The position numbers and the translations under genes are program-made. Shown one piece after another: positions 25,544 through 64,000 of a DNA stretch of 64,000 bases; position 1 is the first letter of the stretch; every line of letters starts with the position of its first letter. The DNA lies in NCBI RefSeq assembly GCF_910596095.1, contig NC_056538.1, forward strand, positions 18,400,501 through 18,464,500, read 5' to 3'. Source of the stretch: Thunnus maccoyii. Its lineage: Eukaryota; Chordata; Actinopteri; Scombriformes; Scombridae. The notes beneath the pieces are model-generated. The model made no database searches and was not told the DNA's origin. It worked only from the letters and a program-made list of their open reading frames with translations.

Positions 25544-28500
25544 ATGTACTCATGGAAAGTAATGCATCTGTTCTGTTTTTCAGCTGCATGGATTTTTCTG
25601 CTGCGGACACATTCTGGACTTGCCTCAGGTAAGAGCAATAACTATTTAAAAGTTATACATATATGTTTTATTTAACTAATTAAGCTAATTTAAGAGGAAA
25701 CAGACAAACACTGATTCATTACAGACTTCCTGAAATTCATTTATGTGTCTCAGAATCTTTTGAAGCAAGTGCAGACCTCCCTTTCAGTGAAGAGACCAAC
25801 TCTGATCAGTGTCCAGAAGGAACATACTTCTCCCACCAGCTTTGTTTAGAGTGTCCCTCTGGTCATTTGTAAGTCATCAGTGAATAACTAATATTATCTA
25901 CCTGTATAGTTTTACAAAGAAAATATATAGGTAAAAACTCATTTTAGTATAAATACAGACACTATTTTTGCTCCTGGGGAACCATGTGTAAGAATTTGAA
26001 AACATTTTGATACTGAAATTTGAAAAGAAATATGTTTATGTATATATAAATGAATAATTAATTAATATATTCCTATTTCATTCACCTATTTCATAGTTGT
26101 CCTGGCAATGTATCTGCACCTCATAGATGCCCAACAGGAACATTCAACCTCTATACAGGGAAAAGCAGTATCAGTGACTGCAAGGTAATAGATCACTGTG
26201 ACAAAATGTATCATTATACAATACACTTTTCTTTTGTCATAGCTTCTTTTGAAAGAAGGAAAAATTCATATTTCCTTTAACAGCCTTGCAACACTCTTGT
26301 TTTGTTATGGTTCTTAAACAAATTTGATTCGTATACCTTTTCGTATACCGCAGAGAACATCTTCACTTATCATAGCAGGAAAAGCACAGGTGGAACTAAT
26401 AACACTAACAACAGCAGTTATTGCAATGCAATGCAGCACTTAATGATCTTATCAGTTACACCTGTGCTTGAAAGGTCAAATTGCCTGCTGTTGAAAAAGG
26501 TCTCTACGACTTAAGATTCTCTCCACCCCTCATGTGTTTCCCCCCTGCAATTGCACAGTTTGAGAGCCACTGATATAACAATACATATTACAAGATATTT
26601 GTAATGTGATCATCAGAATATTAGTTATTTGCTGTTAACCTCAAATACTGTGCTCAATGCTGTAGAACAGGTAGTCACTACTAATATCTGTATGTTGCAG
26701 CCTTGTTTTCCAGGTCTGATCAGTTCAGATGATAGAGTGGATTGCAGACTGTGTCCTGCAGGTTTCTCCTGTGATCCAGCCAATGGGACGCTCTCTTTAT
26801 GTCCCCCAGGACATCATTCTCCTGAAGGGGTCGTTCAGTGTCTGACCTGCCCTGTAGACTCTGTCTGCACCTCTGGTTTCCCTCATAAGGTAACAGAAGG
26901 GCAGACATTCACAAATTTAACCTCATGTTAAACCAAATGTTTCACAATAGAAAGAAGAAAAACAAATTGTATGTTTTTCACCCTTGTCTTGTATGTTTTG
27001 CCTCATAGTGTGGGCCTGGCAAAGAGCCCAACTTAGATCACAATGAGTGTAATGACTGTTCCCCGGGCTTCTATTCCACTGTGTGCACTATCCAGTGTCT
27101 TCAGTGTCCTGCAGGTATAAAAGACTATGAACACATGTTTCATACATGTGTAGATTTTAAATAAAACAGTTAATTTGTGATCAAAAGGTCCTTCAACAAG
27201 TAAAAGTGAGTCCTCTGCCTGCCACAGGAAGTTACTGTCCAGAAAGGGGGATGTCGCAGCCTCTCCCCTGTCCTCCTGGTTGGTCTTCCACATCGGGCCA
27301 GACATTCTGCCGTAGCTGTAACAACACTTCCTTACTGTGTGGGGGAGCTGTGTCCCCCCGCTGGAGCCAACCAGTCTACAGGTCCAGTCAACCAATCATC
27401 TGTCGACCAGGAACATACAAAGACTCAAGGGAAGGGTTAGCCTGTGTTGTCTGTCCAATAGGTTAGTGTTTATCACGGCATACTGCCATTTATGTTACAG
27501 TTTCCTTTCCTACGGGAAGATGCCTAATATATATTTGAATATGTTTTTTCCTCACCCAGGTCATTACTGTGTAGGAGGTGTAGCTATACCCTGTCCTGCA
27601 GGAACTTATGGCCCCAAAGAAGGTCTGCAGAGGCTGAGAGACTGTACAATCTGTCCTGCAGGTAGAGTAAACCTTTGCATTCTATACTGTTATTCTTGGA
27701 GTTTAAGGTTGCACACACCGTGATGTGTGCAGAAAATCATAACATCATATCAATGAATACCAAAAGTATGTATACCAATAGACTTGACTAAGTTAATAGG
27801 CCAATTTAATTAAGTTAATTGTTTTGCGTGTCCTTAACATATATGATATGCTGTTAATACCTGTTCTTGTGATCGCATCTATAAATACTTTTCTCTAGGG
27901 TTTTACTGTCTGGAAGGCATCTCACGGACACCCACCTCCCAGTTCCTGTGCCCACAGGGCTATTACTGTGAAGAGGGCACAGCCACCCTTCATGGGTCAC
28001 CTTGCCCTGCTGGTACAGCGGGGGAACAACTGGGTCAGACAAGTAGGGCAGCCTGTAAGAGATGTAGAGAAGGACGCTTCTGTCCTGCAGGTAAGTCTTA
28101 GCACTAATACAATGACTTTATTGACACAACATGAAATACTAAAATACTAAAGAAATTACAGCCATAATTGTAAAGAACATGAAATGGAGCCTCACACAGA
28201 AGAAAATAAGATCTATATTAGAGATAAAATATGACAGCATGATGCACTGGGCCCACTACTTCTCCCTTTGTATGTTGTGTGTGTGTGTGTGTGTGTGTGG
28301 GTGCGACAGGCTCTTCAGGTCCTGGTCTGCCCTGTGCTCGGGGGAGATACTGCCCTGCTGGCACCTTGGAGGAAGTGATATGTCCTCGAGGCACCTTCAC
28401 CCCTCATCAAGGAGCAATAAGTGAGGCATTTATATCCCATATCATTACTGTTTTATACTAACCACTCATCAATTAAGGTTTTATATTCGCAGTTATTGAT

Positions 28501-29282
28501 TTCTTTCCAGCATACTGGACAGAAAGCTCTGGTTTGCTATTTATTTCAAAGTGAAATTATCATTTGGGAACAGCTCTGCAGTCCCTCAACAGCTCAGCTA
28601 AAACTAATATGGTGCTATAGCAGTCGATCATAGCAAAACTTGATCATATAAAAATATGTGTTGTTTAGTTTACATGATGAATAAGTATGTATGGATGAGG
28701 AATTGTAACAGATGGATGTTAAGAGGGCAAAGAGAGAATGCATCTAATTTAGCAAAAAAAAAAAAAAATCCCAACAGCTGTGTGGTGGTAAGCTGGAGCT
28801 GTGAGTGCAGAATGGAAAAAATGATGCATGACTGTGAAGTAATCTAACTATGTGCTACATTTTATAATAGGAATAGATCACAAAAAAGTCCAGTTGATTC
28901 CTTTAAATATATCAAACAGACACCATAAATAACTTTTCCTTAGCAAATTAGGAGAATTTTAGTTACAAGTTTACAGTTACAATGAGCAATATCAACTAAT
29001 ATAAATAACGTTGGACTACATTGTACTATAAACCTACAACAATCTTAGAGTGACAACAGCATCTTTGTTCTGTTAACTATTTCCTCCAGGTGTGAAGGAC
29101 TGTCTCAAATGCCCAGCTGGTTTCTACTGTCCTGTGGGGACAAGTGACCCTGTGCCCTGTCCACCAGGCTCCTTCAACCCCTTAGAGGGTCAAGATGAGT
29201 TGGCTGATTGCAGGGAGTGCTATGCAGGAAAAGCCTGCACACAGGTAGCTCTGAGAGCCCCTGATGTGGATTGTATGCAAGG
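25544..29282 (+). CDS. Giant repeat gene, exons 1-10 (N-terminus, residues ~1-471)
   Basis: Exons are 25544-25628, 25754-25868, 26097-26184, 26701-26889, 27009-27114, 27228-27461, 27560-27661, 27899-28090, 28310-28420 and 29090-29282. Exon 1 is the signal peptide. Exon 2 gives an acidic spacer (ESFEASADLPFSEETNS) before the first cysteines. Exons 3-5 are the most divergent units, with HRCPTGTFNLYTG, RLCPAGFSCDP and NECNDCSPGFYS. They lack the YCPxG core and probably form a specific N-terminal cap. From exon 6 (GSYCPERGM) the regular repeat begins. Exon 9 starts just after a (GT)n tract that abuts its acceptor. Confidence 0.82.
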
Positions 29283-32200
29283 GTAGGTAACCTGCTCAGA
29301 TTAAAGACAATGTTTTCTGTCAGTGACACTCTGACCTTATTTTCTCAAATATATCTGATTTGAAAGAGGTCATAGACTTTCACATTCTGTAAGTATTTTT
29401 TTCTTTGTGTGATCTCTATGATTTTGATTAGTTTTCTTAAATTCCGGTAGCTTTGTGTGTCCCCCTGGTTCCTCTAAACCCAACGCCCCGACCAATGCTT
29501 GCCCACCAGGGACACTGAGCAACCGCACGGATCTCACTGACCGCTCACAGTGTCAGCGGTGTCCGGCACGATATGCTTGTCTGCGAGGTATATACACATG
29601 TTTATCCAGCTGGCTTTCAAAATCACCATTTGATATTTCATAATATCAGAATAGATTATTATAGCTATGATGCCTATTAGGGTTGGGCAATATACCATTA
29701 TAATATAGAATATATGTTGTGATATGAGACGAGATATTGTTGGGAGCTTAGGTTACTATCGTGATGTAGCTTCAATTTGTGTTCTTCCTAGACCTGAAGG
29801 CTGCATTATAGTCAAATTATACATATTTATGGACTTATTTGACTGCTCTAGAGTAATGAAATTACAGTAACTATGAATACTTCTACCTTTTGGATCAGTA
29901 TATCATCATTAATAATGACATTTTTTCTCAAAACTTTCTTAGGTGTAAACATGTTCTAAAAGCCAATAATCAAACCCCTCCGAAAAAATATTGTCACATT
30001 ATATCAGTATTGAGGTGTTTGATCAAATAAATAGTGATACTTGATTGATCTCCATATTGAAGCACTTTTTTTTTGGTTTGAACAGGAACTGGTGGTGCCC
30101 AGAGACCACCACTCTCCTGCTTTGCAGGGCATTATTGTCCACCTGGAACTATGTTCCCCACCCAGTACAAGTGTCCTGTGGGGACTTGGAGTGGTCACAG
30201 TGGATTGGAAGCTGAAAGTGAGTGCCGGCCGTGCCCACAAGGCTGGTACTGTCTGGCTGGGTCAGGTGCTCCATCAGGCCGATGCAGCTCTGGACACTAC
30301 TGTCCTGAAGGTACACATGAGGGTGACACAAGTGGATAATATAGGTAGTATTTACATTACATGAATACATTTGTTCAGTGCTGAAAAACACAAAATTATC
30401 CTCCAAGTAATTACGTGTTTTTCTTTGTAAACTGATGAAATATTTAGTAAAGTTATGGGTATAAAATGTATTCCTAAAATAAGATTTCTCTTCAAGAGAT
30501 GTCATCATGAGTCTTTCTTGTGGATATATCTTTGTTGATGTTGCATCACCAGGGACAGCATATGGCACCCAGTTTCCTTGTCCTGTGGGCACCTACAGCA
30601 TCCAAATGGGCAACAGGCAAAGAGAAGAATGCCTGGTTTGTCCTGAAGGCTCGTTCTGTCAAGAGGGCACCTCTAAACCTTCACCCTGCCCGCCGTAAGA
30701 AATAACTGTATAAGTACCAGAGAGAAAATGTAAAAATGATTTTGAAGGATGAGGAGGATGATAAGAAGAGAATTTGCAATATGGGGTAAAATGAGGGATT
30801 AAGCTGGTATAATAAGTATGATTTAGTATTTACCCTCTGTTCTGTCTTTCTCTAGCTCCAGTTTTCGCCGTCTGAAAGGAGGTCAGAGGCTTGAGGACTG
30901 CTCTGCTTGCCCTGCTGGCTATTTTTGTCCCCACTCAGCCACTGTCAACCCCAGAGTGTGTGGAGCTGGCAGCTACTCTGTAAGGCCCCATCTATAACAC
31001 AGCCCACTGTGACTGGTCGACTGACAGAACCAGTGGAAACCAGAGCTCGTGTTTTTGGTCTCGTCCTTCCATAAGCCATTCTGATTGTCCTATTTTTAGA
31101 TTAGCATTTTCCGCCCACAGTGATATCGTCTTACATTGCTCACCATGTATGTACATCTGTAAATGTCATCCACAGACGCAGTTGAAGTCAAATTTTATTA
31201 TAGTTCATCTTTTGCTCTCAATATTGAATAAATATCAGTGTTTTTCCATCATCTTCCAAGTTAGATCCTCCTCTCCCTTGCGTTTTAAATTTGTATTTCG
31301 CTGTGGCCCTCCCCCATACTGGTTGATATCTTTAACTTCACCTCTCTGAATCTTCTGAATTTGAACGTCCTCTTGTGTGTAGGATGAAGGCTCTGTGGAG
31401 TGTTCTCCATGCCTGCAGGGCCACTACTGCAGTGATGAGACCACTAGTGAGGAAGCCATGTTAAGCGTCATGGTGTGCCCCCCAGGCTTTCTCTGCTCTC
31501 AGGGTTTAGCCAGAGACCCTCAGCGCTCAGCCACCCTCTGCCCTCGTGGCTTCTACTGCCCTGGAGGAGGCATTGTGAGTTAGAGCAATATACATACAGC
31601 AGAGGGAGATTTTTTTTTTAATTATGTGGTCTGCTTTTCAAAAATCTATAGCATTTTTGGTCGATCACAGCTGATTGTAATCTCTTATAGGATCCCAACC
31701 CCATTCCTTGCCCCAATGGTACCTATAGTGAATTTCCTGGTCTGCGAGAAGTCAGTGAGTGCGTCCAGTGTCCTCTGGGGAGGTACTGTTACTCTCAGCA
31801 GCCTCAGGAGCAGCCTATTACCAGACCTGTAAGATCCCAAATGAATGACATATACAGTATTTGAGATGCAGAACAGAATAGTATGGTACCTTTTTCACTG
31901 TAGTAATCATACATAAAAATATAGTCAAATACTGAGTCCAAAAACTTGCATACTATGTTTATTTGATTGTAGGTGAAAATTGTACTTGCATAGTAAATGA
32001 TTTGACCATCTATGCTGTAATCTGTACTGTCTCAGACAGGGGTGTGTCCTGATGGGCACTATTGCCCCCTAGGAACTGGATACCCGTACACCTACCCTTG
32101 TCGGGCAGGACAATACAGGAACATCACAGTCGGTCACAGTGGAGAGGCGTGTGTTTTATGTCCATCCAGGTATTACTGTGACAGACCAGGAACTCACACA

Positions 32201-37963: not shown

Positions 37964-38012
<49 letters not shown>

Positions 38013-44000: not shown

Positions 44001-47000
44001 ATTAAGTTTAGAACTTACATAAGCCCAGAGACAGCTTACTGAACAGGTAAACAAAACACTCTTTCAAGTTAATAGGGCTAAACATAAGCAGCTGCTCTGT
44101 TGTTGACACTGGAAATCGAACCCTGTCCCCTGTGGATTGTATGTGTTTGTGTGCGTGTGCTTGAGTGTGCGTATCTCTTTCATGACTCTCGTCTTCACAC
44201 AACTAGGTTATTACTGTTCTGAGGGCTCTGCGGCTCCTCAGCAGTGCCCCCTGGGAACCATCAGTACAGAAGATGGCCGAGCCAGCTGCAGTGTCTGTCC
44301 CCAGGGGTAAATTTGCTTATCACGGAGACACACAATCACTCTGTACCATAAACATATACACATTTGCGCATTTAAACACAGTGGATTATGCAAGAACTGT
44401 AAATATACATACAATACAATTTCCCTCTTACTTTGCACACACATATACACGCACAGACACAAGTACATCCACACATCACTGCCATCACCAGCAGCCAAGA
44501 AGTAAATTATTCCATCTTTGTTTTTGTCTGGATAGATTTTATTGTCCTCGCAGTAGCAACGGCTCTCTGTCAGAGAGTTATGAGTGTCCAGTGGGTCATT
44601 ACTGTCCGTCCGGGACCTGGTCCAAACACCAGTACCCGTGTCCAGCTGGATCCATCAATCCGAACACTCGGATGGCAAAACCCCAGGACTGCTTGCCCTG
44701 CCCTCCAGGTCACACATCATTTACTGCTAATGATTATGAAATTCCTTAAGGTTATGTAGTTGACTCAGGGCTTAAAATGAACTTATTATATTAACAAAAA
44801 GTGCACTTCATACAACAGCTATTGTTAAAAACCAGGATCAAGAGGAGCATTATAATGATATACTGTATCCTAACTGGGATTCTGGTTTTCCATTTCACCC
44901 AGTTTCTCTATTTTTACAAAAAAGGTTCATTCTGTGCATCCTCTGGAATGGGTGTTGTATCAGGCCAGTGTGGTGCTGGGTATTACTGCCTCTCTGGGAC
45001 TTCGTCCCCCACACCAGAGGATGGAGGGATGACAGGTGACAGGTGTCCTGAAGGTCATTACTGTCCCCAGGGTTCCTCTGCACCATTGCCCTGCCCCATA
45101 GGACGTTACAGCAACAAAACCAGGAACAGTCATCTCTCTGACTGCCTGCCTTGTCTTCCAGGTTGGCACTTATTTACCACAATTTTGTATTCACTTGTGT
45201 TTAATTATGTGTATTTAATCTGTCAGAGGGTAAAGTTCCCATTACATAACTTGATTTATCAGGGATACTCCCTTCACACAATATATGTGACTGCTTGCGA
45301 CTGCTTAACAGTGTCCCTTTTGTTTTGCAGGCTTCTTGTGTGTCACCAGAGGGCTCCCTTTCCCTTCTCAAATCTGTCCAGCTGGCTTTTACTGTCCAAG
45401 TAGAGAAAACAGCAGCCTTCAAGCCTCAATACCCTGCTCACCTGGAAACATGTGCCCACCTGGAGCTCATAGACAGGTACCCTGCTTTCCAGGGACCTAC
45501 CAGAATTTACCCGGGCAGGTAAGGAAGATGCAGATCTGTTATGTCCTGCAGTCACAAAGGCAAGGAACACCTACTATATAATGCTTTACAAGTGACCCCA
45601 TAGTCACTGTGCTCCTGCCTTACACAGTAGATGACTTGATACAATGGATTCCTACATATTTGTCATAAACAGTGCTGTTAACTAACTGTATATGACCTGT
45701 AAAAATGGAATTTTTGTGCAGTGTGAGACTGTGTAATCTGCACATTCTGGAGGAAGTTATGGAGCTTTTATATCTAAAGCAGGAGTCTGACGTGTTTGTA
45801 TCTGTTCATATTAGAGAACATATGTAGTCATAATTTTGTGTATGCACTGTGTAGCAAAAATTATATCCATGAATACTCCTCCACAGGCAGAGTGTGTTAA
45901 ATGCCCAGCAGGATTTTACTGTGCTGGCTCAGTCGATGCTGACACTGGGCATGTGTCTGGGACTCACACTCCCATGCTGTGTCCTAAAGGACATTATTGC
46001 CCACCAGGTAGGATACAATAGTGCAGTCATTGCAACACATTCATGCATGACAAACATACAAAGTTATCAGACTCATTAGACAGAAGTATATGTGGGACAC
46101 AAGTGATGTTGCTCACATAATTACACTGATTAATTAACTAATAATGTGTTGTATTGCATGGGATATGTTGTTGAATAGTGTTCTTGTTTCGTGTGTACTC
46201 CTGAACAAGTGGCTGTAACAGTAAATGGCTTTCTAATTATGCAAATGGCCATCACAGAGCGTAATCAAGATAAGGATGGTCTTCACAAACTGTTCTGTGA
46301 TGTTTAGTCCTGGACCATCTGTAGATATTAAACGCTATTTATCTACAGGAACGCAGTCTGGTGTAGCATTCCCATGCCCAGCTGGTGCCTTTAGCAGGCA
46401 GATGGGGTTGTTCAATAAGTCGGGCTGTGAGCTCTGCCCTCCAGGGAGATACTGCCGTTCCTCTGGACTGGCTGCTCCCACTGGGGACTGCTCTCCTGGG
46501 TAAACACAGGCAAACTGAACACGTATTTCATCATGCTTACAGACAGACTATGAGAGATATGACATCCTGTTTCTGTTTAATTCTGTCTCCCTTGTCTATA
46601 ATTAAACCTCCCTTATGCTCTGTCTCTCCCTCTGTCTTTCTCATCTATCACTTCCCACATCCCCCTCCCAAATCTTCTCTGTCCTCATCATCTCTCTGCC
46701 CATAGTTACCTCTGTATCCACGGTTCTGTTTCTGCCCAGCCAGAGGGAGGCCCAACAGGAGGCCCTTGCTCTGCAGGGTCCTACTGCCCTCAGGGTACCA
46801 GCTATATGGTTCCCTGCCCTGCAGGCACCTTCAGCTCCATAGATGGTGACATATAACAATGAATGATTAAACAGATACACCCTTGGTGACATTTGAACAT
46901 AATAGGCTGTGTTAACGAAAGTTGTTGATGGTGTGAATCTTAGTAAATAAATGAGAAAAATTCCTACCCTTCTTCATCAGAAGGGTAGGATTTTTAATTA

Positions 47001-47722
47001 ATTAAACATATAAGCTGTATTTTTGGTGTTCCAGGGGCAGTGTCTATAGAAGTATGTCAGCCATGTTTGTCAGGCCATTACTGTGCGGAGGTTGGCCTCT
47101 CTTCCCCATCTGGACCCTGCAACCCAGGCTTCTACTGCACAGAAGGATCCAAAACTGCTGCACCTTGGGGTAATATCACAGGTAACAAGATTCTTCTACT
47201 TGCGCTCAATGTAGCGTTAATAGAAGCACGGAAACATGCACAACGGGTTGTTTTAAAAATGGTATTTGTAATATACGGACTCAGGTAAATCTGTCATGAG
47301 GTTATAAAATGCTGTGCTGTTGACCATTTTTCCTCCTTAGTTATTATTTAACCTTTTCATGGATTTTGACTACATCAGCTGGAGAGGTCTCCACCGAACA
47401 TTTACCAGTCCCCACTGCTTTCTCTTAGCAGTATATTCCTCTGTGGAATTAGAGAAAATGGCTCTGGCCTTTTAGTTCACTCACTAACCTAATGAGTAAT
47501 GACATCCAATAAAGGTCTATTGTCTCAGTTACAGGAGATACCACGTCACCATCCCCACTTCCTGGTGTTTCAACCCCAGGTCAGTTCCATGGTGATGTAT
47601 GTCCTGCCGGTCACTATTGTCCTAAAGGGAGTGAAAGGCCAAGCCCCTGTCCTCCAGGTACCAAACCAACATATCCAGAGAGGTCTGAAAGAATTTCTGT
47701 TGTAATGTATCATGAACCTGCT

Positions 47723-47758
<36 letters not shown>

Positions 47759-50700
47759 CAGAAGTATATAAGCCCCCAGTCATTTCCCCGAGAGAGTTAT
47801 GTGTCCAACCTCCTGCTTTTTATTACATTGCTTCCAAAGGTAGTGTACAGTGCCATAAAGCCCCCAGAGGTACAGTATACTGGCTTAATGTATCCAGAAC
47901 TTTAGAGGAGGTAGTAAAACCTAATGGGAGTCCAATAAAACTGTCATAATGGTCAGCTAGCTACTTAACCAAGTGAATAAATGGAGCCATCTACGGTGTG
48001 CACACAAGACACTGTTACATCATGCTATTTCCTTCTGTGTGTGTGTGTGTGTGTGTGACAAAGAAAAAGAACTAGAGGGAGTTATTTTTATTCTCATGAT
48101 AATTTGTCTCCTCCATATAGGCACTTTCCTGGGGAGGTCTGGGGCTGAGTCTGAGGCAGACTGTGGAGCTTGTTACCCGGGTTTTTACTGCCCCTTGTGG
48201 GCTCAGACCTCTGCTGACCTCCTCTGTCCCCCCGGGTGGTTCTGTCCACCAGAATCAGTGTCTGGACATCAGCCAGGTACAATGTGCATCATCAGGGGTC
48301 AGCTCAGGTTTAACTACTGTAGTCTTTGCACTTCATCATTTTCTTTTTTTTTTCACTTAGTGTCTGATCTCATCGACCATGTCTGGTTTCCCAATATTTG
48401 GTTCAGTACACCAAGCTTCACTTACTGTAGTACTGTACTATACATCTTTAATTAGGGAATGGACAGAATACTATAGAGAAAAAATGGTTGTATTGAAAGT
48501 AGTGAGGTAAACTTTACTTGTAAATTATACATCAGGTTGCATGCCAATTAGCCAATAATGTATTCAATAACTTATCAGGTGGCACTTTTGTAGGAGTGGT
48601 TTTAACTGTAATAACTGCATACTTAACTTATTTTCCATGAGATGTTTACATTACCTGTCTTTCTACACCCTAAATTTAGTTATGGTGTAACTGTGTAGTA
48701 ACCGGTGCTGTAACTAGTAGTGTGTAGCAGAACTCATCAATTACTTTACAAACCGTACATCTACATGTACCATGGAGATTATTTTATGCCTCAGATGGGG
48801 TTTTCTTCTCCTCCTCCTCCTGTGTTACATGTGCACCTAGAGTTTCTATGAAAGGCATCTTTGTCCCCTTTTCGCCTTTTATCAGGAAGACATTTTGCTA
48901 ATTTGAGCATGAAATGGCCCAGAAGCTATAAATAGTTTCCAGCTCGTCGCTGTCAGAGTCAGGGCACCTGCTGCTGAGCCTGCTTTCTCTTCTCCTCGTC
49001 TCCCCCAGGATTTTCATACAGGACGAGTCACTCTCTTCTTCATTGCTTTGTTTGTGTGGTACCACACTGGGCATGGTGAAATACAGCAGCCATGCTTGCT
49101 TTCATGGATAATGCCCCCCTAAATGAACTTATGTGGATAAATCATAGTAGCACTACATTTCAAATGCAAATTACTCTTGTTTATTTTGTTAAAATGGAGA
49201 TGAGAGTTTGAAAATTCTTGATTGCTTATCTGATTGTGTCACAGGATGCCAGTGCCCACCTGGCCATGCGTGCCCGCTTGGTAGTGCTGAGCCGGCCATC
49301 TGTAGCCCTGGCACTTTTCAGTCTTCATCTGGACAGTCTGCTTGTAACATCTGCCCACCAGGTTAAAAAAACACATCTGCACTCTCATGTTTATATACTA
49401 TAAACTATACACAAAGAAACAAAGGTGAACTGGAGCATATTATGAAATGGGACACCTCACCTTGCCCAGGTTTTTACTGTATGGAAGGTTCATCTGTGCC
49501 ATCTCCATGTCCAACGGGTGCTGTCGGTCCATCAGCTGGCAGGACGTCCCTCATCGACTGCTCCCCCTGCCCCTCTGGCTTCTTCTGTAACAGCACTGCT
49601 CTGGCAGAGCCGTCTGGACCCTGCAGCCCAGGTCTGACAGGCCCCTATCACCAAGGGAGAGGATGTCAGAGAATTGTGTTATAAAAGTGTCTTTTCCTCT
49701 CTTGTATGTGTGTTCTGTATTAAGCCACATTTATCCTTCAGTGTAAATGTTGCAATGTTCTCTGTGAGATATCTAACTACATTGTCTACCACAGGACATT
49801 TTTGTTCCCTGGGGTCCACTGAGCCTTCTCCCGTCTCCCAGCCTTACGGAGATGTTTGTCCCATGGGACACTTCTGTCCTCAGGGTAGTGGGTCACCCAA
49901 ACCCTGTCCTGTTGGCAGCTTCCTCACAGAGCCTGGAGCTTCCTCTTCCTCTCACTGCCACCCCTGCCCACCGGGGAAATACTGCCTCAGTCCTGGAGCA
50001 TCACAGCCCACAGGTGGGGGATTACACCAGGTTTCCCATTAGTCAACAACAGTCAGGCTTATCATTGCTCATTGAGTATTGAAGGCTTATTGTGTAAAAT
50101 CCACAACATTTCCTATTTCAGCTGTACACTGCAACTAAGTATAGGTTCAGGAGTCATACACATCACATTATCTGAATCTAAATGAAACTTAATGGCTGAT
50201 CATCAGGCTGAACTCCCATATAATTAGATGTGTATTCATTCCATTCCAATTTATAATACCTCCCGGTGGTAGGTCTGTGTTTTGCAGGTTTCTTTTGTTC
50301 CGGTGGTGCAGATAGCCCCACACCCCAAGCCACCCCCTCTTTGTTCAGCTGTCTTCATGAAATATTGGAGGTTTATACCACAAAGACAGACGCCGCCTCT
50401 TGGATGCACAATATGTCCTGCTTCGATAACTCCAGTAATTCTGGTAAAATATGGGTTTCTTCAGTTTGTAATAACACAATAAATGCTTCCTTTGAAAGGG
50501 CAGTACATCAATTTTTTTCAGGCTATTCAACCAGAGTGCAAAGCCTTACGTGCCTTGATAAATGTCCCACAAAGCAGTGGCTTTTCAGTTTGACCTTTCA
50601 CTTAAGTATTCTACAATTAATTATTGCCTTACAGTGTTACATTGTAAAAAGATGTTGTTCCCTTGACAGTCAAAAGTGTTAAATTAGCATGTAGAGAGAG

Positions 50701-53700
50701 AGGAGAGGCTCCTCTTTGGTTTCCTGTCTGCAAGACAAAGATATTAACTTAGACATCTTTCATGTTTTATCTGCCATGTTCTATTATAGGGAGAGACGCG
50801 AGCTGGATCGAAGTGGTAATGGCGCCACGGGCAGATTCAGACCATACTGTGACTCACTCACCGCCATGTCTCAAGAGTCCACATTATGCATGTACCACCT
50901 ACAGAGGAGATATATGCCCTAGGGGTGGGTAAATCCTGACAGTGAACTTGTGCACTCAGTGCAATACTTGTTCATCCCCTAAAGTGCAGATATGCACGTT
51001 ATTTTCCTTGTTCATGACACGGTAGTCCCACTTAATATAATTGCTGTGACATATGACTGATTTTATCTGATCTGCCTAGTGTGTGCAGTATAGTCCAGCT
51101 TTAACACCACTTCATCTTGATTTTCTTTGGACTTTGTTTTTAAAAATAATGAATGGAATATGTTTCAATCAGGGCAAAACTATTTGGTTTTTGTTCATGC
51201 ACAAATGGAGCCAAGATGTTGGTGGTTATCACATTAGAATTCCTCCTGCAGATGAAACTCAGTCTTGAAACTTCAAATTCCCCTAGTTGTAGACCTGAAA
51301 GTCTAAATGCTGGAGTTGGACTTCCCTCTTGAGGAGCTGAAGATGGTTGGGTAGTAGTGCGGATAAAATAGCTGCACTGAAATGAAACAGCCGATGTCAG
51401 ACCAGCAAGGAACCGATTTAAATTCTTGCAGCAAAGTAATTACTGCCCCCTGGAAACCTTGAAAAAAATCTGGTGGGTTAACTGTAAATAGAAGAAGCAG
51501 AAAATAAGAGTGTGGGAATGGAAAGTTCAGACTTTGAGAAAATCCTCTATCTCTAGAGGGAGTGTGTGCATAAGACCAGTAGACCTCTTGATTGGACTTT
51601 TGCTCTCACTGAAGTTGATTTACTTCAGTGATACTTTGTGGCTATTTTTCAGGTTTCTATTGTCCACTGGGTTCTGCCTACCCCCACCCCTGTGAGGCTG
51701 GTTCGTACTGTAACCAAGCTGGTCTAGATGCCCCAGCAGGATCCTGTGCGGCAGGATACTACTGTCCTAGAGGCTCTTTAGACTCTCATACCACCTCTTG
51801 CCCTGCAGGGCATTACTGCCCACTTGGAACCCTTCTCCCTCTCCCCTGCCCTCTTGGAACAATAAAAAGTAAGATGTCACTCTTGTTATTTAGCTGTAGC
51901 TTCTAGATTCGATATAATCTTGCATATTGTTTGATTTTTGTGAACAATTTTATTATCAATAGAAAACTGCATGCTACCTGTTTTCTCTTCCTTTGAAAAG
52001 AGAGACAATTTAGGACAAGTCAGTAATCCCCTGCCCTTTTTGGTCATGAATTAATGATGAGTGAGTAATCAAACACAATACTAAACTGTGAATTACAACA
52101 CCTAATCCTCTTTGTTGCACCAATTGTCAGTTTTTCTTGCTTATGTTCTTACATGAACCGGTGTCTATCTTTGCAGTTCAGTGATGCAGAGAAATATGAA
52201 AACTTGCATTGAAGCCTTTTTCTCCCCCTTGGGTGCCTATGAATAATTTCAGTCACAAAGTGGTTTAATCGTGTAACTGTATTCTTGTCTCGCGGCAGAC
52301 AACCAGAATCCTATTAAAATGTGCTGTAGCTCCTTTGTATGGTTATGAATTAGAAACTGATGAGGGAATAGGTATGTACTTTTCATTTAATTAATATTGT
52401 TATCTATTTTAATGCTTTCATTACATTAACTTATGAAGTGATCAGTGATTTAATTTTGTATGTCAACAAATTCTGTGTATACAGTGATGTACAGATAAAA
52501 CACAAAACAATGAAAAACATTCAAAAGTATATAAATGAATAAATTTATTTCTAATTGATGTATATTGTTTGCTATCAGGTTCCCTTGGTGGATCTACAGT
52601 TGAGGATTGCCAGCTGTGTCCTCCAGGTCATTACTGCCACCAGAGAGGCATAGCAGAGCCAAGTGGCCAGTGTGCAGAAGGCTACTACTGTCCTGAGGGA
52701 CAAAGCTCTGAAAGACCACAGCAACATGTCTGCTCAGTGGGACATTATTGTGAGAAGGTCAGCCATGCAGTACAAGTCTTCAAGCTATTGTCAGTCATCA
52801 TTGTTGAACATTGCATGTGATGCCTTCCTCCTTGGCCGTGTCTTTCATTCTGTCATGACAAATGCATTGCTGCATGCCATGAGTCAATTGTTTTCCTCCT
52901 GTTTGCTTGACAGTTTGTCCTGTGTTGTCTTTCTTGGTCTTCACTGTCGTTGCAACCATGATAATGCCTAACGATGCATGTTGTTCCCCAGATATAAAGT
53001 CTAATAAAATCACTAATGGTTGCTTTAGGGCAGTGTCAGACAGACAGCCTGCCTCCCAGGCAGCTACCAGCTCAGACAAAGCCAAGGCAGCTGTGAGACA
53101 TGTCCTGCTGGTTTCTATTGTGAATATCAAGGTAAAACTGATGTGTTGACAAATCATTGAATGACAAAGCATTTAGCAGCAGGGGACGTAAATATAGTCG
53201 ACATTAAGGTAATGGCTGTTTTTTGTAAGCAACCAAAATGAAAAATGTTCTTTTTTTTCATATGCACATCAGGAATGATCCTTCCACTTTCATGTGAGAA
53301 AGGATTTTATTGTCCTAGTGGATCAGCAAATCAGCATCCCTGTCCAGCAGGTACCTATGGAAACAGGACAGGGTTGGTTGAGGAACTGCAGTGCTCATTG
53401 TGCGACCCTGGGATGTACTGTAAAGGAACAGGTACAATACATCACAGTTTTTGACCCTTATTAGTTGCTTGTTCTCTATTTCTCACAGTTGACCATTTTG
53501 CAAATGGCTGCAGTTTAGATTTATAAGTGTAATCCAGAAACAATTAGAAGTAAATAGCTGCTCTGTTATTTGAGTGATAAAAATCTTGCTTGAATGATAT
53601 TCCTTTTAAGGGAGGTCTTCCCCCAGTGGCCCATGTGCTGCAGGGTTTGTTTGTGTTGAAGGAGCCTCTGAACCTTCACCATCAGACAGTCTGACTGGAT

Positions 53701-56700: not shown

Positions 56701-59700
56701 GTATAGAAAGGATAAACCCCTAATTAAATAAAAAAAATACTTGTTCACAGTTAAGTGAATGTGTTTCAAATTTGATGATGATGAGTTTTATTTTGTTGGT
56801 ATTTCTGGCAGGAATGTTCTGCTCTCAATCTGGTCTATCGCAGCCCACAGGACTCTGCGAGGCAGGATACTACTGTCCAGCTGGATCAACCAGCCCTAAC
56901 TCTACTGAGTATCAGGTGTTGTTGTTGTTCTCTTTTGTCTCTGTAGGTCCATAACCTTGTGATGTTGGTCAGTAAGTAGTTGGCCAGTCAGCCCTTGCCC
57001 CCAAAGAATGATTCTTACTGATATTGGTGACCTTTTGACCTTTCATGTCAATTCACAATTCATGTCAAAATATTCTTATGCCCACAAGAAAGACCAAAGA
57101 CTCCTCATTACCTTTCTTCCAACAACACCATCAAGTGGAACTTTGTACACAAGCTATCAAAAAACCACATTTCCTGGAAATTTGTTGTGGTTATTAATGG
57201 TGCCTTGGCAATGAATTGCTTTTCCTCTAGCACCACCATCAAACTTAAATTTCCACTGGTACACAAAAAATATCAGACTCTAACTGTGTTTACCATGAAT
57301 TTCACTGAACTGATTTCTGCTCCCCATTTTGGTCACCCCATAAGCTTTCCTCAATATCCCCCTGAGGGGAAAAAATTTCAGCACAACATACTGCATAATC
57401 AAATAGAAGACTGCCATATTGCTGAGCATTTTTATACTATGATAAATGATAATAAATGAAATTGTAATAAATGGGAGTAAATTGCTATAGTTTAACAACC
57501 ACATGACCCTTCCAAATCACATTTTAAGTCCAACTACTTATAAGGCTTTAACAATAGGAAAATCATTATTTTAACTTTCATCAAGCACCTTTGTATTGCA
57601 GGATGTAATATTTTAGCTTTAGACTTGACCATATTCGACTTTAAGTCTTGTTACTACATGCAAGCAATGCATGCTTTACCATGCATGCATCCTTAGGACA
57701 TTATGCATCAAAGCATATAAATAAACACTGTCATTTTGTGTGTTATGACACTGACTGCATTAGGGTTTTTATTTTTTATTTCTATCTCAGGCAAATTCTA
57801 CCAGAAACCATCTTTGCCCCTCTGGCTACTATTGCCCCTCCGGCACTGGCTATCCACTCCCTTGCCCCACAGGCTCTCTCTCCATCTTCCAAGGACTGAA
57901 GGGGCTAGAGGAATGCCCACCCTGCCCCCATGGACTGTTTTGTGACAGACCTGCAATAGCTGAGCTCTCAGATGCTCTCCCATGTCATGCTGGGTAATCA
58001 CCTTTGCTCTTTTGGCTTTTCAGTTTAAAACCTCTCCACTCTGTCTGAGAGTAGAGAGACATACTGTTCTTTTGTCCTTGATGGATATTATTCAGACAGT
58101 TCACTTGACTAGCTGCCTTTGACCTAGACAGGAGGTGGTCATGAAAATAGTTTTGCTTTGAAATTGTTTTTCTTCTTTCTTAAAAATAAAATAATTTTAT
58201 TATTTCTCTGTCTCTCCCCTACCTTTTCTGTTTCTCACCTTCTGCCTTTATTTTAAGATTTGTGCAAAAGATTTATACATAGATTCAAGGGACCATTCCA
58301 TTATGTCAGCAGGATATCCGGTGTTCAAAAATCAATTGCAAGCCAGTATACTCACAAACAACTGAATCAGACAGATAATTGAGGCAAGCAGACAGTCTTT
58401 ACCTGAGCGTCTGTTGAGTCTCAGCAGGAGAGGGAGCAGTGTTCTTCAGCAGGACAAAATTCACACACTTTGGTAAAAGCTGCATTTTGGTCGTAAAGTA
58501 TGCTCTGCAGTGAATACTTAAACAGATAAAACCCACTTTAAAGTGGCTGTAGCAGTGTGTGTGTGTGTGTGTCAAGGTTACAGAATCTGAGTTTATTTTT
58601 TATTCCATCCTTGAGGTATAAATAGGATCTATGATCTGAGTTGACTACAGAATTAGACTTCAGTGAAATTAAAAAGTCATAAAACAAGTTCTATTTTATT
58701 TGACACTAATCACCACCAGATATCAAAGCATTTACATTAATTTGGAAACACTATTCTTTACAACTTATGATGCTTGCTTCTGAAACTAATTTCAACATAT
58801 GTCATTTCAATTTTCAGTACCTGCATTCTTGGGACTATTTATCACAGATTTCTGGTTAGACATTATTTTAATTACATTGATTGAACAATGTGAACTGCCC
58901 TGAATTCAAATGTACTAGTTTCAATGTATCAATACAACAGTGACTGTAAACAGAAATGCTGCTCATTGAAAATCTGCCTTTTTAATAAACATTCCATAGC
59001 CATGCTCTACTTGAGAACACTACCTACCATTGTAAAACTAATAATTCTAATAACCTTCATCATTGAAATTTGAAGTGGCCTTGATTGACACTGAATACTT
59101 TCATTAAAATGTTTTCTCAAACTTCTCCAAAAGATGATATTTTCTCACTGACAGATTGTGGGATCTTACTAATGGCAACTTGAAGCAATATTTGTGATAT
59201 GAAGTTTGTTTTTCCTGTTTATGCCTACAGGTACGTTTGCCTGGGTGGCAGCTCCAGTCCCACCCCATCTGATGGTTCCCATGGCTACCTCTGCCCCGCT
59301 GGCCATAGCTGTCCTGTTGGCTCAGCAAGTGAAGTTCCCTGTGAGCCTGGCACTTACAGTCCAGCCCCTGGAGCAGCCCACTGCATAATATGCCCCAGAG
59401 GGACCATGTGTTCCTCGTCAGCCACTAAAGAGCCCTCGATCTGCCCAGCTGGTGAGGATGGTGATAATAATCTTCAAGTATAAATCAGATCATTACTGCA
59501 AGTCTACACAACTCTAAACTACATAACAGCAGTACTGTCCAGTGGGAAAATTCCTAATGTTGCTACATTAATAATAAACTAATATTTGATAACTGTTATG
59601 ATCTCTTTCTAGGTCATTTTTGTCCTGCTGGGACAGCCCTGCCTCAACCCTGCCCTGTAGGGACTCTAAGTAATCAGACAGGAGCACACTCCCTCTCTGT

Positions 59701-61224
59701 GTGCACAGCCTGTCCCTCTGGAGTGTACTGTAGCTCATATGGAGCATCAACACCACAAGGTGCACAGATACAATAGAGATGTTTAGTGATATGACTTTTG
59801 TCTTATAACAAAACGTATGCACCTGTATGCTGGTTAAACAATTTAATAACAGATAAGCAAATTGATGAGGAAATTTATAGGGTTTGTGTGTTTTTGTCTA
59901 GGTTTATGTTTGCAGGGTTATTTCTGCCAAGGTGAAGCAATAGGGCCAACACCGCAGAGCTCTGACAACTTCCCCAGGAATGGGCCTTGTCCTGTGGGCC
60001 ACTATTGTCCAGCAGGTTGCCTCTCCCCAATTCCTTGTCCTCTTGGCAGTATCCGCAACACCACTGGTACTCATAATGTTTACACACATTATGAAATAAT
60101 GTTTTTTCTATTAGATACCATGTCTTGGCTTTTGAAATAGATTCTAATATCATGCCATTTTCTCTTCTGTGAGAAACAGCTTTCTGTCACTGTCACTTTA
60201 TCTCCTCACTGGTATCTGTTGTTCTTCTTTCATAGGAGGTGTGTCGATGGAAAGCTGCTCTGCCTGTCCTGCAGGTCATTACTGTTCTACTGAAGGTCTG
60301 GCCAACCCCAGTGGGCCCTGTGCTGCTGGTTTCTACTGCCCTTTTGACTTCTCTTCAACCATTCCATATGCCTTCCTCTGTCCCAAGGTAAGGCTATTCA
60401 TGTACTCTTTAATTCTTTCTATCTGTGTTCCCTGTCTTCCACTGAATTCCCTTCCCTGTCCTTCACATATCCATTGTTGTTATTGTCTACCTAACAGTAT
60501 CTCTAAGCTATCTTAGAGAAGCTTGTGCCACGTTGATTATCATTAATGTCCTGCTGCATTGAATGCCACCCCTCAGTTGCACTTTGGTCATTTCCATTCT
60601 CTCCTAGGGCCACTACTGTCCAGAAGGCTCTGCCCTAGCCCTGCCTTGTCCAACAGGAGAGTATCAGCCAAACCTGGGCTCAGATAGCTGCATTCCCTGC
60701 CGACCTGGATTCTACTGTGAGGAGGCCATAATAGGAGAGCCATGGCCCTGCCCACCACACTCATTCTGCCCTGCAGGTATGCTATGTACAATTTTGACTA
60801 CAGAGGATGACAACTTTAATTTAATTTCCATGTATGTATAATCTTATAAACCATCACAAAGAAAACAAAAAAGACACAAAACTCCCTTTCAGATTTGTGT
60901 TTTAGTCCAAAATAAAACAAAAAAAAAAATTGTACTTAATGGCACTTATTGCCATTGTGGTAATTACTATGTAATAAATCATGCAGCCTGTCTCTGTTCT
61001 TCTGCATCTTTTGTCAGGCACCATGGTGCCTCAGCCATGTCCTAATGGGACATATACTCATCCAAACCAGGGAGGGCTACAGGAAGAGAGAGAGTGTTTA
61101 CCCTGCCCCCCAGGGAACTTCTGCAGGTAAAGAGCGCTGGTTCACTGGAAGCATCACAGCTTATTTGCATGCAAGCATGAGCACGCAAATGTGCACTTGT
61201 CTCACATACTGTACAATACACCCA

Positions 61225-61284
<60 letters not shown>

Positions 61285-63897
61285 TATGTATATAGACATA
61301 CTGTACAGTTAGGCACATGCACATCCTGTGCTCATGCATACATGCTCAAAGGCAAACACGCTCTCTGCTTTGATTATACTCACAATTAGCAGAAGGAGGG
61401 AATACTGTATATCATGCTTCGGGAGTCATGGTTCACTGAACAGCCAAATTAACACCTTAATATGGATGAATATAATGAATTTGGATATGACTATGGGAGG
61501 TTAAAATGGTAGAAATTATGTAATTATCAAGCTGTTTATCTAATGAAGTGTGCAATCTAGTGTCTTCAGAAATATTCTTGCCCATGCTTGTGTGTGTTTG
61601 TGTGTATGCAATGAATTTTGTGGTTTTATGGATAAACTAACCTAGTGTATATTTTCCAAAGAGCTGGTAGGATCCAGGGTGTGTGTGCTGCAGGGTATCT
61701 TTGTTTTTCTGGGAGTGCAGATTTAACCCCGCAGGGACCAATGTCTGACTTGACCCAGTGTCAGTGGGGCATGCAGTGTGCTGGACCATGTCCACCAGGT
61801 ACAATGCATCAATTCTTAAAAACAAACAAACAAACAAACAAATAACCTAAATGCTAGCAACAATTGATATTCAGTTTATCCACAGTGTTGTTCTCAGATG
61901 ACCTTTGAGATTAGTTATCTCAAACTTATAAGTATAGTCAGACAGTCAGTTTATCATTTAACTCTTTAAAGTTAATTGTAAAAACCTAAGCATTTTTTTA
62001 TTCTAGGTTTTTACTGTCCTGAAGGCACAGAGGAGGCTGTGCCGTGTCCTACAAACAGTGTCAGAAGCTCCCCAGGAGGTGCCAACCTACAGGACTGCTT
62101 ACTGTGCCCACCTCAGCATTGGTGTAAACCTGGTACAGACTGATAACAGTCTTAATGTTTGAGTGTTTTGAAGTATTTTTGTAGCTAATGCAGTCAGGTT
62201 TACAGAATTACAGTGCAGGATAATCTTTTAAACATTATGAAGTCTCCTTTTTGTGGACAAATTGGGTTTGAGAAATGATGGAAAGCAATGCCTGAGTTTG
62301 TGACATTGATTTAGACAATTAAAACTTAGCAGAAAGGGCATTGCGTAGTTTTGGAATTCTTACAGTGAAAGTCTCATTTTGTCTTTGGTGAGCAGTTTTT
62401 CAATCCTGATGCTTTGTACAGAGCATACTGCCTGCTTTCTATCGTACCATGTAGTTGATTACAGTCTTGTGTGTAAACTGATTAGATGTCAGCATGATCT
62501 GGGACTAAAAACCACTGGCTGACAGCCAGGTGAGCCCTGAAAATGATGACTAAGGCTGGGATCATGAAGTGTTTACCGGTCAGAAATATTGCCAGGGGCA
62601 AGTGCTTGATGAGCCTTAAAAGTAATCAATAAAATATTGAAATCTTGAAATCAACTCCTCAAACGGAAAGCAAGGAGTGTAACAAATGTGCACTGAAACA
62701 ATCTTCACATAAAAATATGAAACTGTTTTTTTCCCCTCATAATATTTCAGCATTTTGTTTGTTTGTTTGCAGGAGATGCAGTCCTTCATCTGTGTCCTGC
62801 TGGTCATTACTGTGATGGTTTACCTGGCAGCAGCTCTAATGGAGAGACAGGACCCAGGCCATGTCCTCTGTACACCTACCGAGCTTCCCCTGGCGCAGGC
62901 AGCAAGAGTGACTGCCTGCCCTGTCCTCCTGGTTCTCACTGTAATAGCACAGGTCTGACACACTGCAGCTCACACCATAGACCACAACCTACTAATTTAA
63001 AAGGTTAATTAAAATTACATATGCAAATGTAACAGATTCCTTAAATTACAGGTGATATTTTCTCTTTTCTTTCTGCTATATCTTGTAATGAATTGTAAAA
63101 TAGTTACACCTTAGTATGCCTCTCTTGAGTGGGTTTGAATTCACATTTGGAAGGACAGTTCAATGCAGTTTGCCTTTCTAGGTTGTATTAATTTCACTAG
63201 GCATGCACACCTTTATACTTGTGCCTGAGCCTTTAGCTGAGATAAGAGTGGAGAAGGTATAATGTGATTGAAGGCCTTGAATTTAAAACATACCTGGGGT
63301 GACAGTTATGACTGAGGGGTGGATTTACAAAGGAAAAACTTATTTTAATCTCCCTCACAAATGCTTAATGTTTGAAATTGAAACCATATTGTTACTTTAT
63401 CTGCTGGATGATGTGCAGCAGATGGTCTCCTCCCTCTCCTCTCTCTGATTCTTTGTATTCATACATGAAAGCTTCGTAAATAATGAGTAGCAAAGAACTT
63501 CACTTGTGTCTGAGTCATTTTGATAAGTTTAATGGTTCAGGTGTTTGTTACTTCATTGAGGGTCCCACTCAATTTGATAATTTCTTATGCAAAGATGAAA
63601 TTAATTTATTTAAATTATGGTTTCACTGTGTGAAGTAATATGTTTTCTACATTTTTTATTTTTATTTTCCAGGGCTTACAGACTACTCCAACCATCCTTG
63701 CCCACCTGGTTATTGGTGCAGTGGGTCTGGACCCCCTTTTCTCTGCCCACCAGGCACCAAGAGGTCCCTTCCTGGAGCTGCTGCACCTAGCCAATGTGAG
63801 CCCTGTGCAGGGGGAACCTTCTGTCCAGATCCTTGGGCTACAGGAAAGCCCAATGTGGAGGGGATACCCTGCAGGGCCTCTTATCATTGTCCCATGG
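25544..63897 (+). CDS. Giant secreted/surface GCC2-GCC3 repeat protein, 3' end missing
   Basis: This one gene fills the right 38 kb. I chained 79 coding exons (coordinates in the eight segment entries below), all in phase and without a stop, giving 12,322 nt or at least 4,107 residues. The start has a signal peptide (MYSWKVMHLFCFSAAWIFLL); a second in-frame ATG at 25562 is also possible. Nearly everything after residue 45 is a cysteine-rich repeat. A unit reads roughly CPxGxYCPxGSxxPxPCP, then GTYxNxTG, xxDCxxCPPGxYC, GLxxPSGxC and GYYCxxGA. This matches the GCC2/GCC3 or ephrin-receptor-like (TNFR-like) fold. Many NxT/NxS sites suggest glycosylation. No kinase, EGF, LCCL or membrane segment is seen. 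Exon 79 ends with a good donor at 63897, so the gene continues beyond the window. I know no named vertebrate gene of this form. Function unknown; an extracellular structural, mucosal or immune role is only inference. Confidence 0.85.
26382..26469. mobile_element. MITE-like 88-bp element with 16-bp terminal inverted repeats
   Basis: AAGCACAGGTGGAACT at the left end and AGTTACACCTGTGCTT at the right end are inverted repeats with a single mismatch. The interior is AT-rich and noncoding. It lies in intron 3 of the giant gene. Confidence 0.55.
28276..28300. repeat. (GT)n tract abutting exon 9 acceptor of the giant gene
   Basis: About twelve GT units end ten bases before the exon, so this intron has GT repeats where a pyrimidine tract is normal. 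Confidence 0.9.
29451..33354 (+). CDS. Giant repeat gene, exons 11-20 (residues ~472-1023)
   Basis: Exons are 29451-29587, 30086-30310, 30553-30694, 30856-30979, 31383-31574, 31691-31828, 32036-32218, 32379-32573, 32923-33071 and 33186-33354. Introns after exons 14 to 18 and after exon 20 are phase 0, unlike the phase-1 pattern elsewhere. Exon 12 has the first full unit (GHYCPPGTM, then GSGAPSGRCSSGHYCPEG). Exon 18 carries VGLKEPSGSCEERFYC. Exon 20 has a divergent acidic stretch (YETEEGYYSRKGAVRAEPC) in place of the usual PCPxG core. The acceptor of exon 17 is ambiguous (32036 or 32040); 32036 keeps the frame. Confidence 0.8.
29678..30045. repeat. Probable dispersed teleost repeat (GGGTTGGGCAATAT type)
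   Basis: The stretch opens with TTAGGGTTGGGCAATATACC and closes with AATATTGTCACATTATATCA and GTATTGAGGTGTTTGATCAA. This resembles a widespread AT-rich nonautonomous repeat of fish genomes. The call rests on recollection only. It ends about 40 bp before exon 12 of the giant gene. Confidence 0.4.
33461..37195 (+). CDS. Giant repeat gene, exons 21-30 (residues ~1024-1521)
   Basis: Exons are 33461-33595, 33768-33920, 34388-34589, 34903-35043, 35145-35330, 35625-35693, 35824-35950, 36065-36198, 36619-36816 and 37046-37195. Typical motifs are AGLSDPQGLCDPGHYC (exon 22), TGLSQPSGTC (exon 23), GAEACDDCPSGTYC (exon 25) and AGLSRPSGLCQAGFYC (exon 28). The donor of exon 23 (CAG/GTGTGG) and that of exon 30 (TG/GTCAGT) are weak but give the right phase. 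From exon 23 onward most introns split the glycine codon that precedes xYC. Confidence 0.82.
37742..42805 (+). CDS. Giant repeat gene, exons 31-40 (residues ~1522-2056)
   Basis: Exons are 37742-37921, 38283-38399, 39309-39458, 39666-39818, 40107-40322, 40858-40962, 41543-41687, 41833-42044, 42269-42487 and 42699-42805. Exon 31 begins with an unusual low-cysteine stretch (WNSQPFDLDNYTNANCLC) before returning to the repeat. Exon 36 is short and clear (CHAGYWCREGASSPSP, then GSLCPPGQYC). Exon 31 has a weak donor (CAG/GTATTT), and exon 40 a non-consensus one (CAG/GTCGCT). The exon 40 call is supported because its frame continues exactly into EDCQPCLPGYYC of exon 41. Confidence 0.8.
37967..38006. 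repeat. (AT)n microsatellite in intron 31
   Basis: About nineteen AT units; noncoding. Confidence 0.9.
39010..39282. repeat. Degenerate dispersed teleost repeat in intron 32
   Basis: It contains TCTTCCCACAGCCTAAAGGC, ATGCAAATTAGGTGGACTTG, AAATTACCCATGGGCATGAG and CTGTTGACCTGTGTGGGGTG, and ends in AATGAATGAATGAC. This is a decayed copy of a repeat abundant in fish. It is noncoding. Confidence 0.5.
40330..40382. repeat. CT-rich low-complexity tract after exon 35
   Basis: Runs of TCTCTT and TTTTCTTCTC immediately downstream of the exon 35 donor. Confidence 0.8.
43660..47657 (+). CDS. Giant repeat gene, exons 41-50 (residues ~2057-2569)
   Basis: Exons are 43660-43813, 44207-44306, 44536-44708, 44925-45161, 45331-45518, 45887-46007, 46349-46499, 46706-46845, 47035-47181 and 47529-47657. 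Exon 44 alone encodes a whole variant unit (GSFCASSGMGVVSGQCGAGY, then GDRCPEGHYCPQGSSAPLPC). Exon 45 departs from the pattern (FLCVTRGLPFPSQICPAGFY). Exon 46 carries an insertion between CAG and LCPKG (VDADTGHVSGTHTPM). The acceptor of exon 50 may be 47529 or 47535; both keep the frame. Confidence 0.8.
47725..47759. repeat. (TAG)n microsatellite in intron 50
   Basis: About eleven GTA units; noncoding. Confidence 0.9.
48036..48057. repeat. (GT)n microsatellite in intron 50
   Basis: Eleven GT units 64 bp before exon 51. Confidence 0.9.
48121..53431 (+). CDS. Giant repeat gene, exons 51-60 (residues ~2570-3064)
   Basis: Exons are 48121-48276, 49245-49361, 49470-49631, 49795-50013, 50288-50443, 50907-50924, 51653-51868, 52579-52757, 53029-53131 and 53273-53431. 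Exons 51-54 and 57-60 are regular. Exon 55 begins normally (GFFCSGGADSPTPQ) but then runs about 35 residues without the motif. Exon 56 is an inferred 18-nt microexon (G-DICPRG) needed to reach exon 57 in phase; both are the least certain exons of the gene. The donor of exon 57 (AAAAA/GTAAGA) splits a serine codon with the GT that opens exon 58. Confidence 0.72.
53611..59451 (+). CDS. Giant repeat gene, exons 61-70 (residues ~3065-3637)
   Basis: Exons are 53611-53773, 54152-54255, 54360-54539, 54914-55135, 55559-55738, 55863-56054, 56551-56700, 56812-56915, 57791-57993 and 59231-59451. Typical motifs are IGLSAVSGSC (exon 62), DGLIEPSGSCAAGFLC (exon 65) and SGLSQPTGLCEAGYYCPAGS (exon 68). The acceptor of exon 64 lies only ten bases after a transposon-flanking repeat. 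Exon 68 has a weak donor (CAG/GTGTTG), but exon 69 picks up its phase 0 and continues with LCPSGYYCPSG. The intron before exon 70 is the longest in the gene within this window (about 1.2 kb). Confidence 0.8.
54632..54892 (+). mobile_element. Nonautonomous dispersed element flanked by an 11-bp direct repeat
   Basis: The segment runs from GGGGCAGCTGTGGCTCAG through TGTCCTTGGGCAAGATACTG to AAAGCGCTTTGAGTGG and GGCGCTATATGAGTGCAGTC. I know this as a very common short interspersed repeat of teleost genomes. CCATTTAAATG occurs directly on both sides (54621-54631 and 54893-54903), as expected for a target-site duplication. The class (SINE or hAT-derived) is not settled here. Confidence 0.7.
57000..57420. 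repeat. Possible dispersed repeat in intron 68
   Basis: Segments such as TTTTCCTCTAGCACCACCAT and AACTTAAATTTCCACTGG resemble a common fish interspersed repeat. No ends could be defined. The 875-base intron otherwise shows nothing. Confidence 0.25.
58555..58572. repeat. (GT)n microsatellite in intron 69
   Basis: Nine GT units; noncoding. Confidence 0.85.
59613..63897 (+). CDS. Giant repeat gene, exons 71-79 (residues ~3638-4107, open)
   Basis: Exons are 59613-59759, 59902-60066, 60236-60387, 60608-60776, 61018-61126, 61662-61798, 62007-62132, 62773-62952 and 63673-63897. Exon 72 must use the first of two acceptors (59902), since only that gives GLCLQGYFC in frame. Exon 76 has a degenerate unit (QCQWGMQCAGPCPPG). 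Exon 79 encodes NHPCPPGYWC through YHCPMG and ends with an ATGG/GTAGGT donor. No stop codon or membrane segment has appeared by then, so further exons must lie to the right. Confidence 0.8.
61225..61282. repeat. (CA)n microsatellite in intron 75
   Basis: About twenty-eight perfect CA units, the longest dinucleotide tract in the window. Confidence 0.95.
61817..61842. repeat. (AAAC)n microsatellite in intron 76
   Basis: About six AAAC units starting 19 bp after exon 76. Confidence 0.9.
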
Positions 63898-64000
63898 GTA
63901 GGTTTATCCACACAGTTTATAATATTACCATATATCTGTAAAATCTGTATGTGATGGCATGGAATATTTTATTTTAATAATAAATATAGTGATTTTAATT

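Follow-up and report, generated by a model that had tools for sequence, protein, structure and literature searches.

A candidate gene for a giant, disulphide-rich membrane protein in Thunnus maccoyii, with a short paralogue nearby

The 64,000 nucleotides analysed here (the window; G000:C6:18400501-18464500 in the assembly of 782 Mb and 54 contigs that we searched) hold a long chain of repeat-coding exons that runs on past their end. With moderate confidence, and going by sequence, we read this chain as part of one gene whose product is a giant type I membrane protein, about 5,290 residues long, with a disulphide-rich rod that would stand on a conserved, anchored base. The phase-matched, stop-free exon chain itself is confirmed as real and lies far above chance.

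The exon chain and its surroundings

Exons were chained by a dynamic programming finder that combines codon log-odds with splice weights, matches phases and admits no stops; its codon model was trained on the giant gene itself. A free run on 25400-64000 gave 79 exons from an ATG at 25588 to a stop at 63941 (4,110 letters with the stop counted; 10.5% Cys). Its score of 1390.6 compares with 172.8 for the reverse complement of the same region under the same finder, with a mean of 20.1 for 20 dinucleotide shuffles (sd 6.6, maximum 33.8), and with 88.9 and 42.7 for two plus-strand control regions (1-25400 and 78-114 kb, respectively). This bears out the claim of the preliminary description that one giant open chain of 79 exons is present. 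A generic codon table combined with equally generic splice weights gave a poorer chain (66 exons, 2,636 aa) and a much narrower lead over the reverse strand: the chain scored 293.4, the reverse strand 127.3 and the 78-114 kb control 39.5.

The features of the window are as follows.

21569..21754, minus strand: RIIa frame that we take to be spa17-like (Pfam)
25544..63897, plus strand: portion of the giant gene that falls inside the window, modelled as 79 exons with 4,121 residues (exon finder and controls)
25544..25628, plus strand: first coding exon, MYSWKVMHLFCFSAAWIFLLRTHSGLAS, phase 1 donor, its start fixed by hand on the earlier proposal
25754..63897, plus strand: array exons, units of about 75 residues with eight cysteines (local HMM and Pfam Ephrin_rec_like)
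28310..28420, plus strand: weakly supported, repeat-like exon with a donor score just below zero (exon model)
44927..45160, plus strand: complete unit in one exon (SFCASSGMG...CLPCLP), seed of the local HMM, acceptor score below zero
49022..49075, plus strand: doubtful model exon, hydrophobic and without Cys (exon model)
50288..50924, plus strand: stretch where the model is poor, holding two doubtful exons and coinciding with the widest gap in the array (model residues 2751-2847)
63898..64000, plus strand: window edge inside the gene, in a model intron; the gene continues about 12.1 kb past the window end

The preliminary description also gave the gene a signal peptide, and this was upheld in part. 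A signal-peptide-like start, MYSWKVMHLFCFSAAWIFLLRTHSGLAS, can be read by eye at 25544. The free chain begins at 25588, so the finder did not pick this start unaided. Its best 19-residue hydropathy is 1.30, under the cut-off of 1.5 of our helix scan, and its best 11-residue value is 2.26. Forcing the start to 25544 yields a model of 79 exons and 4,121 residues up to 63897, in agreement with the earlier figure of at least 4,107 residues; 76 of these exons equal those of the free chain.

The number of exons is not firm. Four runs with different settings gave 74, 89, 84 and 79 exons in the window, and the count of 79 is therefore one good solution, not a measured count. Fifty-eight exons were identical across all four runs and 74 of the 79 final-model exons were present in at least three; 12 of these 79 carry a negative splice score. 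The exon at 49022-49075 is probably false, and those at 50288-50443 and 50790-50924 break the repeat. All 101 model introns are GT-AG, which carries little weight because the finder requires AG and penalises GC, so that the result is largely by construction. Phase 1 was found in 56 of the 81 repeat-region introns, doubtful exons counted.

We followed the gene into the flanking assembly DNA; coordinates past 64000 continue the window numbering. Three further repeat exons extend to 64874. Cys-rich exons then reach 66677 and the juxtamembrane region ends at 68624; beyond it come a transmembrane exon (68728-68890) and tail exons that end at a stop at 76057, with AATAAA at 76210. The full model, in which parts of 64840-69200 were read by eye and one acceptor was set to 66533, has 5,293 residues plus the stop, and the gene runs to about 76 kb. 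From 70.9 kb the tail model is uncertain, with weak exons (71477-71954) and a phase conflict at a join near 75 kb. In a 19-residue scan of the model protein, the strongest hydrophobic stretch was 4653-4671 (mean 3.07), and two weaker ones lay above the cut-off, one within the array at 228 (1.74) and one in the tail at 4902 (1.83). The protein is rich in cysteine, proline and glycine; 465 cysteines lie ahead of the transmembrane helix and the ectodomain has 49 N-glycosylation sequons.

Pfam matches in translated pieces placed RIIa, IQ and two-Ig proteins on the minus strand upstream of the giant gene, a phosphodiesterase farther out and a plus-strand V-set exon downstream. We take the IQ neighbour to be neurogranin-like, the two-Ig neighbour hepacam-like and the V-set neighbour sodium-channel-beta-like; the Pfam matches themselves give only the domains. 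The RIIa match (E 1.6e-11) agrees with the earlier placing of a spa17-like gene beside the giant gene. Adjoining the RIIa frame is a long acidic frame (18581-20515, minus strand). Between the spa17-like and giant genes, at 23561-24521 on the minus strand and divergent from the giant gene, are Ig-like-looking frames and a hydrophobic stretch.

The repeat array and its module family

An iterated local HMM, seeded from the single exon at 44927-45160, produced 63 overlapping matches to a unit with a consensus length of 75 residues and eight cysteines. Fifty-five of them are nearly full length. Of the 4,238 residues in the span 42-4279 of the model, 4,043 fall within a match, the last matches lying beyond the window. 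Since 27 neighbouring matches overlap, by at most 11 residues, the array is as long as about 56 full units. Six interruptions are longer than five residues, and the largest (97 residues, 2751-2847) falls where the exon model is poor.

The array looks old and diverged. Identity between units averages 37% and reaches 56% at most (1,814 comparable pairs), and neighbouring units are no more alike than distant ones. One array stretch used as a query matched other parts of the array at 33-59% identity, and Tandem Repeats Finder, which would overlook units that share less than about 70% identity or whose introns vary in length, returned eight rows, all of period 2-20. Thus, there is no sign of recent duplication. 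These results bear on the idea that the array has no function and is either a relic in decay or a product of assembly expansion, which we regard as very improbable. A few doubtful exons in the model would suit such an origin. However, the frame is open over 79 model exons against the small null set by the shuffles, the diverged units still hold their cysteine pattern, and neither the array-stretch search nor Tandem Repeats Finder turned up high-identity copies. The open frame and the kept cysteine pattern do no more than suggest strong selection on the giant gene.

The preliminary description called the protein an almost pure GCC2/GCC3 array, and the Pfam profile supports this. Ephrin_rec_like (PF07699; cut-off 23.1 bits) matched residues 1-1083 at 50.3 bits in seven stretches and the next two segments at 34.9 bits (10 stretches) and 41.1 bits (five stretches), with E-value limits of 1, 1 and 0.1 for the three segments. 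These three array segments thus belong with the GCC2/GCC3 repeat proteins. The C-terminal segment (exons 80-93), at 16.7 bits, falls below the cut-off. The unit here is longer than the module of the profile, at 75 residues and eight cysteines compared with a 48-position model, and it forms a long tandem array.

SCUBE proteins and Eph receptors carry the GCC2/GCC3 module in few copies, beside other domains. In the segments scanned (the model apart from exon 22, exon 51 and exons 94-96), we found no match to the ephrin-binding, FN3 or tyrosine kinase domains of Eph receptors, nor to the VWA, sushi, EGF, CUB or pentraxin domains of SVEP1 or SCUBE. The passages on SVEP1 in PMC10129328 give it VWA, sushi, EGF and pentraxin domains besides this module. 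The giant protein therefore shares with SVEP1, SCUBE and Eph receptors an extracellular Cys-rich module, and it differs from them in that they have few copies and additional domains. An ELAPOR1-type protein is not indicated either, TNFR_ELAPOR1_6th scoring 16.7 bits against a cut-off of 33.2. Apicomplexan CRMPs, as portrayed in the relevant passages of PMC9815656, are surface proteins with ephrin-receptor-like and other Cys-rich domains; Toxoplasma has two, with nine transmembrane domains, and the family is apicomplexan-specific. The giant protein has one strong hydrophobic stretch (4653) and two weaker ones (228 and 4902) and so lacks their multi-pass core; we see a part-resemblance and no kinship.

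The matches listed in the open-licence literature, among them PMC4224354, PMC6993872, PMC1929063, PMC12716839, PMC9815656, PMC6019070 and PMC10129328, concern Babesia GCC2/GCC3 proteins, apicomplexan CRMPs, Eph receptors, SVEP1, thyroglobulin, choanoflagellate GPCRs and a Hydra transcript. A giant vertebrate GCC2/GCC3 array is not described among these listed matches. The protein probably has an unnamed entry in automated annotation.

The membrane-proximal base and the short paralogue

The preliminary description saw no other recognisable domain in the protein, and this does not hold for the whole gene. The juxtamembrane region, the transmembrane helix and the tail lie past the window, and the base is common to a second, shorter gene. 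The protein appeared to consist of repeats only because the window edge cuts the gene before its base.

G000:C6 about 18676340 down to about 18660000, minus strand: the short paralogue, which lies on the strand opposite to the giant gene and some 200 kb from it

The paralogue starts with a signal-peptide-like exon (...NFWCLWWLFASVLLSLVHGNNFS..., judged by eye), which is followed by an exon with a single GCC2-type unit and then by the base. Its unit scores 14.4 bits in Pfam, under the cut-off. The base of the paralogue, joined by hand with its splice borders checked only in part, is identical to that of the giant gene at 115 of 425 positions (27%; E 8e-34 for that single comparison), and a full alignment of the two bases gives 30% identity. 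Both bases have C.C.G...FQ.SDG.C.C, GD, NxNxxxDxGxFRxL, GxYVF and, closing the juxtamembrane region before the helix, PDW. In both genes the base comes directly after a repeat unit, the start points of the compared sequences being a chosen cut. Thus, the two genes form a local family that has in common the region from the last repeat to the transmembrane helix. By inspection, the positions of the base introns appear to differ in several places. The tails are only weakly similar (68 residues align at 24.6 bits, E 0.004, a score that none of 100 shuffles attains), and that of the paralogue carries repeated DPxTG-type motifs. In sum, the short gene resembles the giant one in its signal-peptide-like exon, GCC2-type unit, juxtamembrane region, PDW motif and transmembrane helix, and differs in having one unit and a DPxTG-type tail. 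Upstream of it, at G000:C6:18683540-18681376 on the minus strand, are ZP-domain exons (PF00100, E 6.6e-7), possibly tecta-like.

No Pfam family was found in the base past the last repeat of either gene, the best matches being unrelated (F-box 0.33, Rrn6_HB 0.25), and the scanned pieces of the paralogue tail and base gave no Pfam match at E up to 0.1. Sequence searches of solved structures returned nothing for the array stretch (E up to 0.01), the base alignment (E up to 1) or the giant tail (E up to 10), one unrelated match for the base (E 0.96) and three for the paralogue tail (0.16-2.8). The pattern GD..F...GxYVF had led us to guess that the base has a cupredoxin-like fold; with no support from any tool, we dropped the idea.

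In genome searches, which score best candidates only and therefore give copy counts that are lower bounds, 53 of the 54 matches (E <=0.01) of a 656-residue array query lay within the giant gene and one at 18675593-18675754 on the minus strand. A 479-residue query of base and tail matched itself in 11 of 13 cases (E up to 10); the others had E 1.46, at 18671602 beside the short paralogue, and E 4.09. Six of the seven matches of a 281-residue base query were to itself (the seventh, E 3.48). With the paralogue base as the query, eight of 14 matches were to itself, the giant gene accounted for five (best E 0.011), and one was on C2 (G000:C2:2337259, E 0.21). We rejected this last as a third family member because no repeat or base exons were seen around it (plus strand, 60 kb) and the match extends in part into a CVCVCV simple repeat. 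Searching the genome for the Pfam family picked out 16 places, all of them outside the giant-gene locus, presumably because single exons score low. No homologues were confirmed in viral contigs.

The paralogue also matters for the idea that our model fuses two or more adjacent genes, for example a secreted repeat-only protein and a separate short membrane protein. This seems improbable to us. It is true that the finder always yields a single chain and that, as the paralogue shows, a base may carry just one unit. Nevertheless, the unit matches continue to residue 4279 with no breaks over five residues beyond the six noted, the array-ending exon (64662-64874) joins the base exons in phase, and the base follows a repeat unit directly in both genes, given the chosen cut.

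The model protein contains exactly one R-x-[KR]-R, RKRR at 4496-4499 within RPRKRR; the composition of the ectodomain predicts 0.26 such sites there. It is followed by the acidic DTDEEDDDYD and sits between the Cys-rich block and the juxtamembrane region. The corresponding place in the paralogue, a stretch of 83 residues, has no such motif. The site is no more than suggestive of furin-type cleavage. It is possible, though in our judgement unlikely, that the product is mainly a secreted filament of a matrix or mucus-like kind, with alternative ends or complete cleavage freeing the array and the anchored form being minor. The position of RPRKRR just ahead of the juxtamembrane region, the richness in cysteine, proline and glycine and the ectodomain sequons would all fit such a filament. 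Against it, the paralogue has both the pre-helix region and, in the same position, a hydrophobic helix, so the anchor looks like a kept feature.

A model for the giant protein and its family

We propose that the units of the anchored protein fold as small disulphide-stapled modules and build a long extracellular rod. By analogy with TNF-receptor-type modules, an array this long may reach some hundreds of nanometres. The conserved working part would be the membrane-proximal base, and the rod may govern reach or avidity, much as would be expected of a long tether or an adhesion receptor. Tethering, adhesion and matrix linkage are the usual roles of giant modular surface proteins. In a weaker part of the model, a furin-type cut at RPRKRR would separate the rod from the anchored base, and the rod could then be shed or remain attached.

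More tentatively, we suggest that the two genes represent an unnamed vertebrate receptor-like family with a juxtamembrane domain outside Pfam, in which one base carries either a one-unit stub or a rod of about 56-63 units. As the furin-type site is found in the giant form and seemingly not in the short one, it may be the giant's rod that can be processed or shed. The giant gene and its one-unit paralogue would be a natural pair that differs above all in rod length, and the purpose of such rods may therefore be directly testable in fish.
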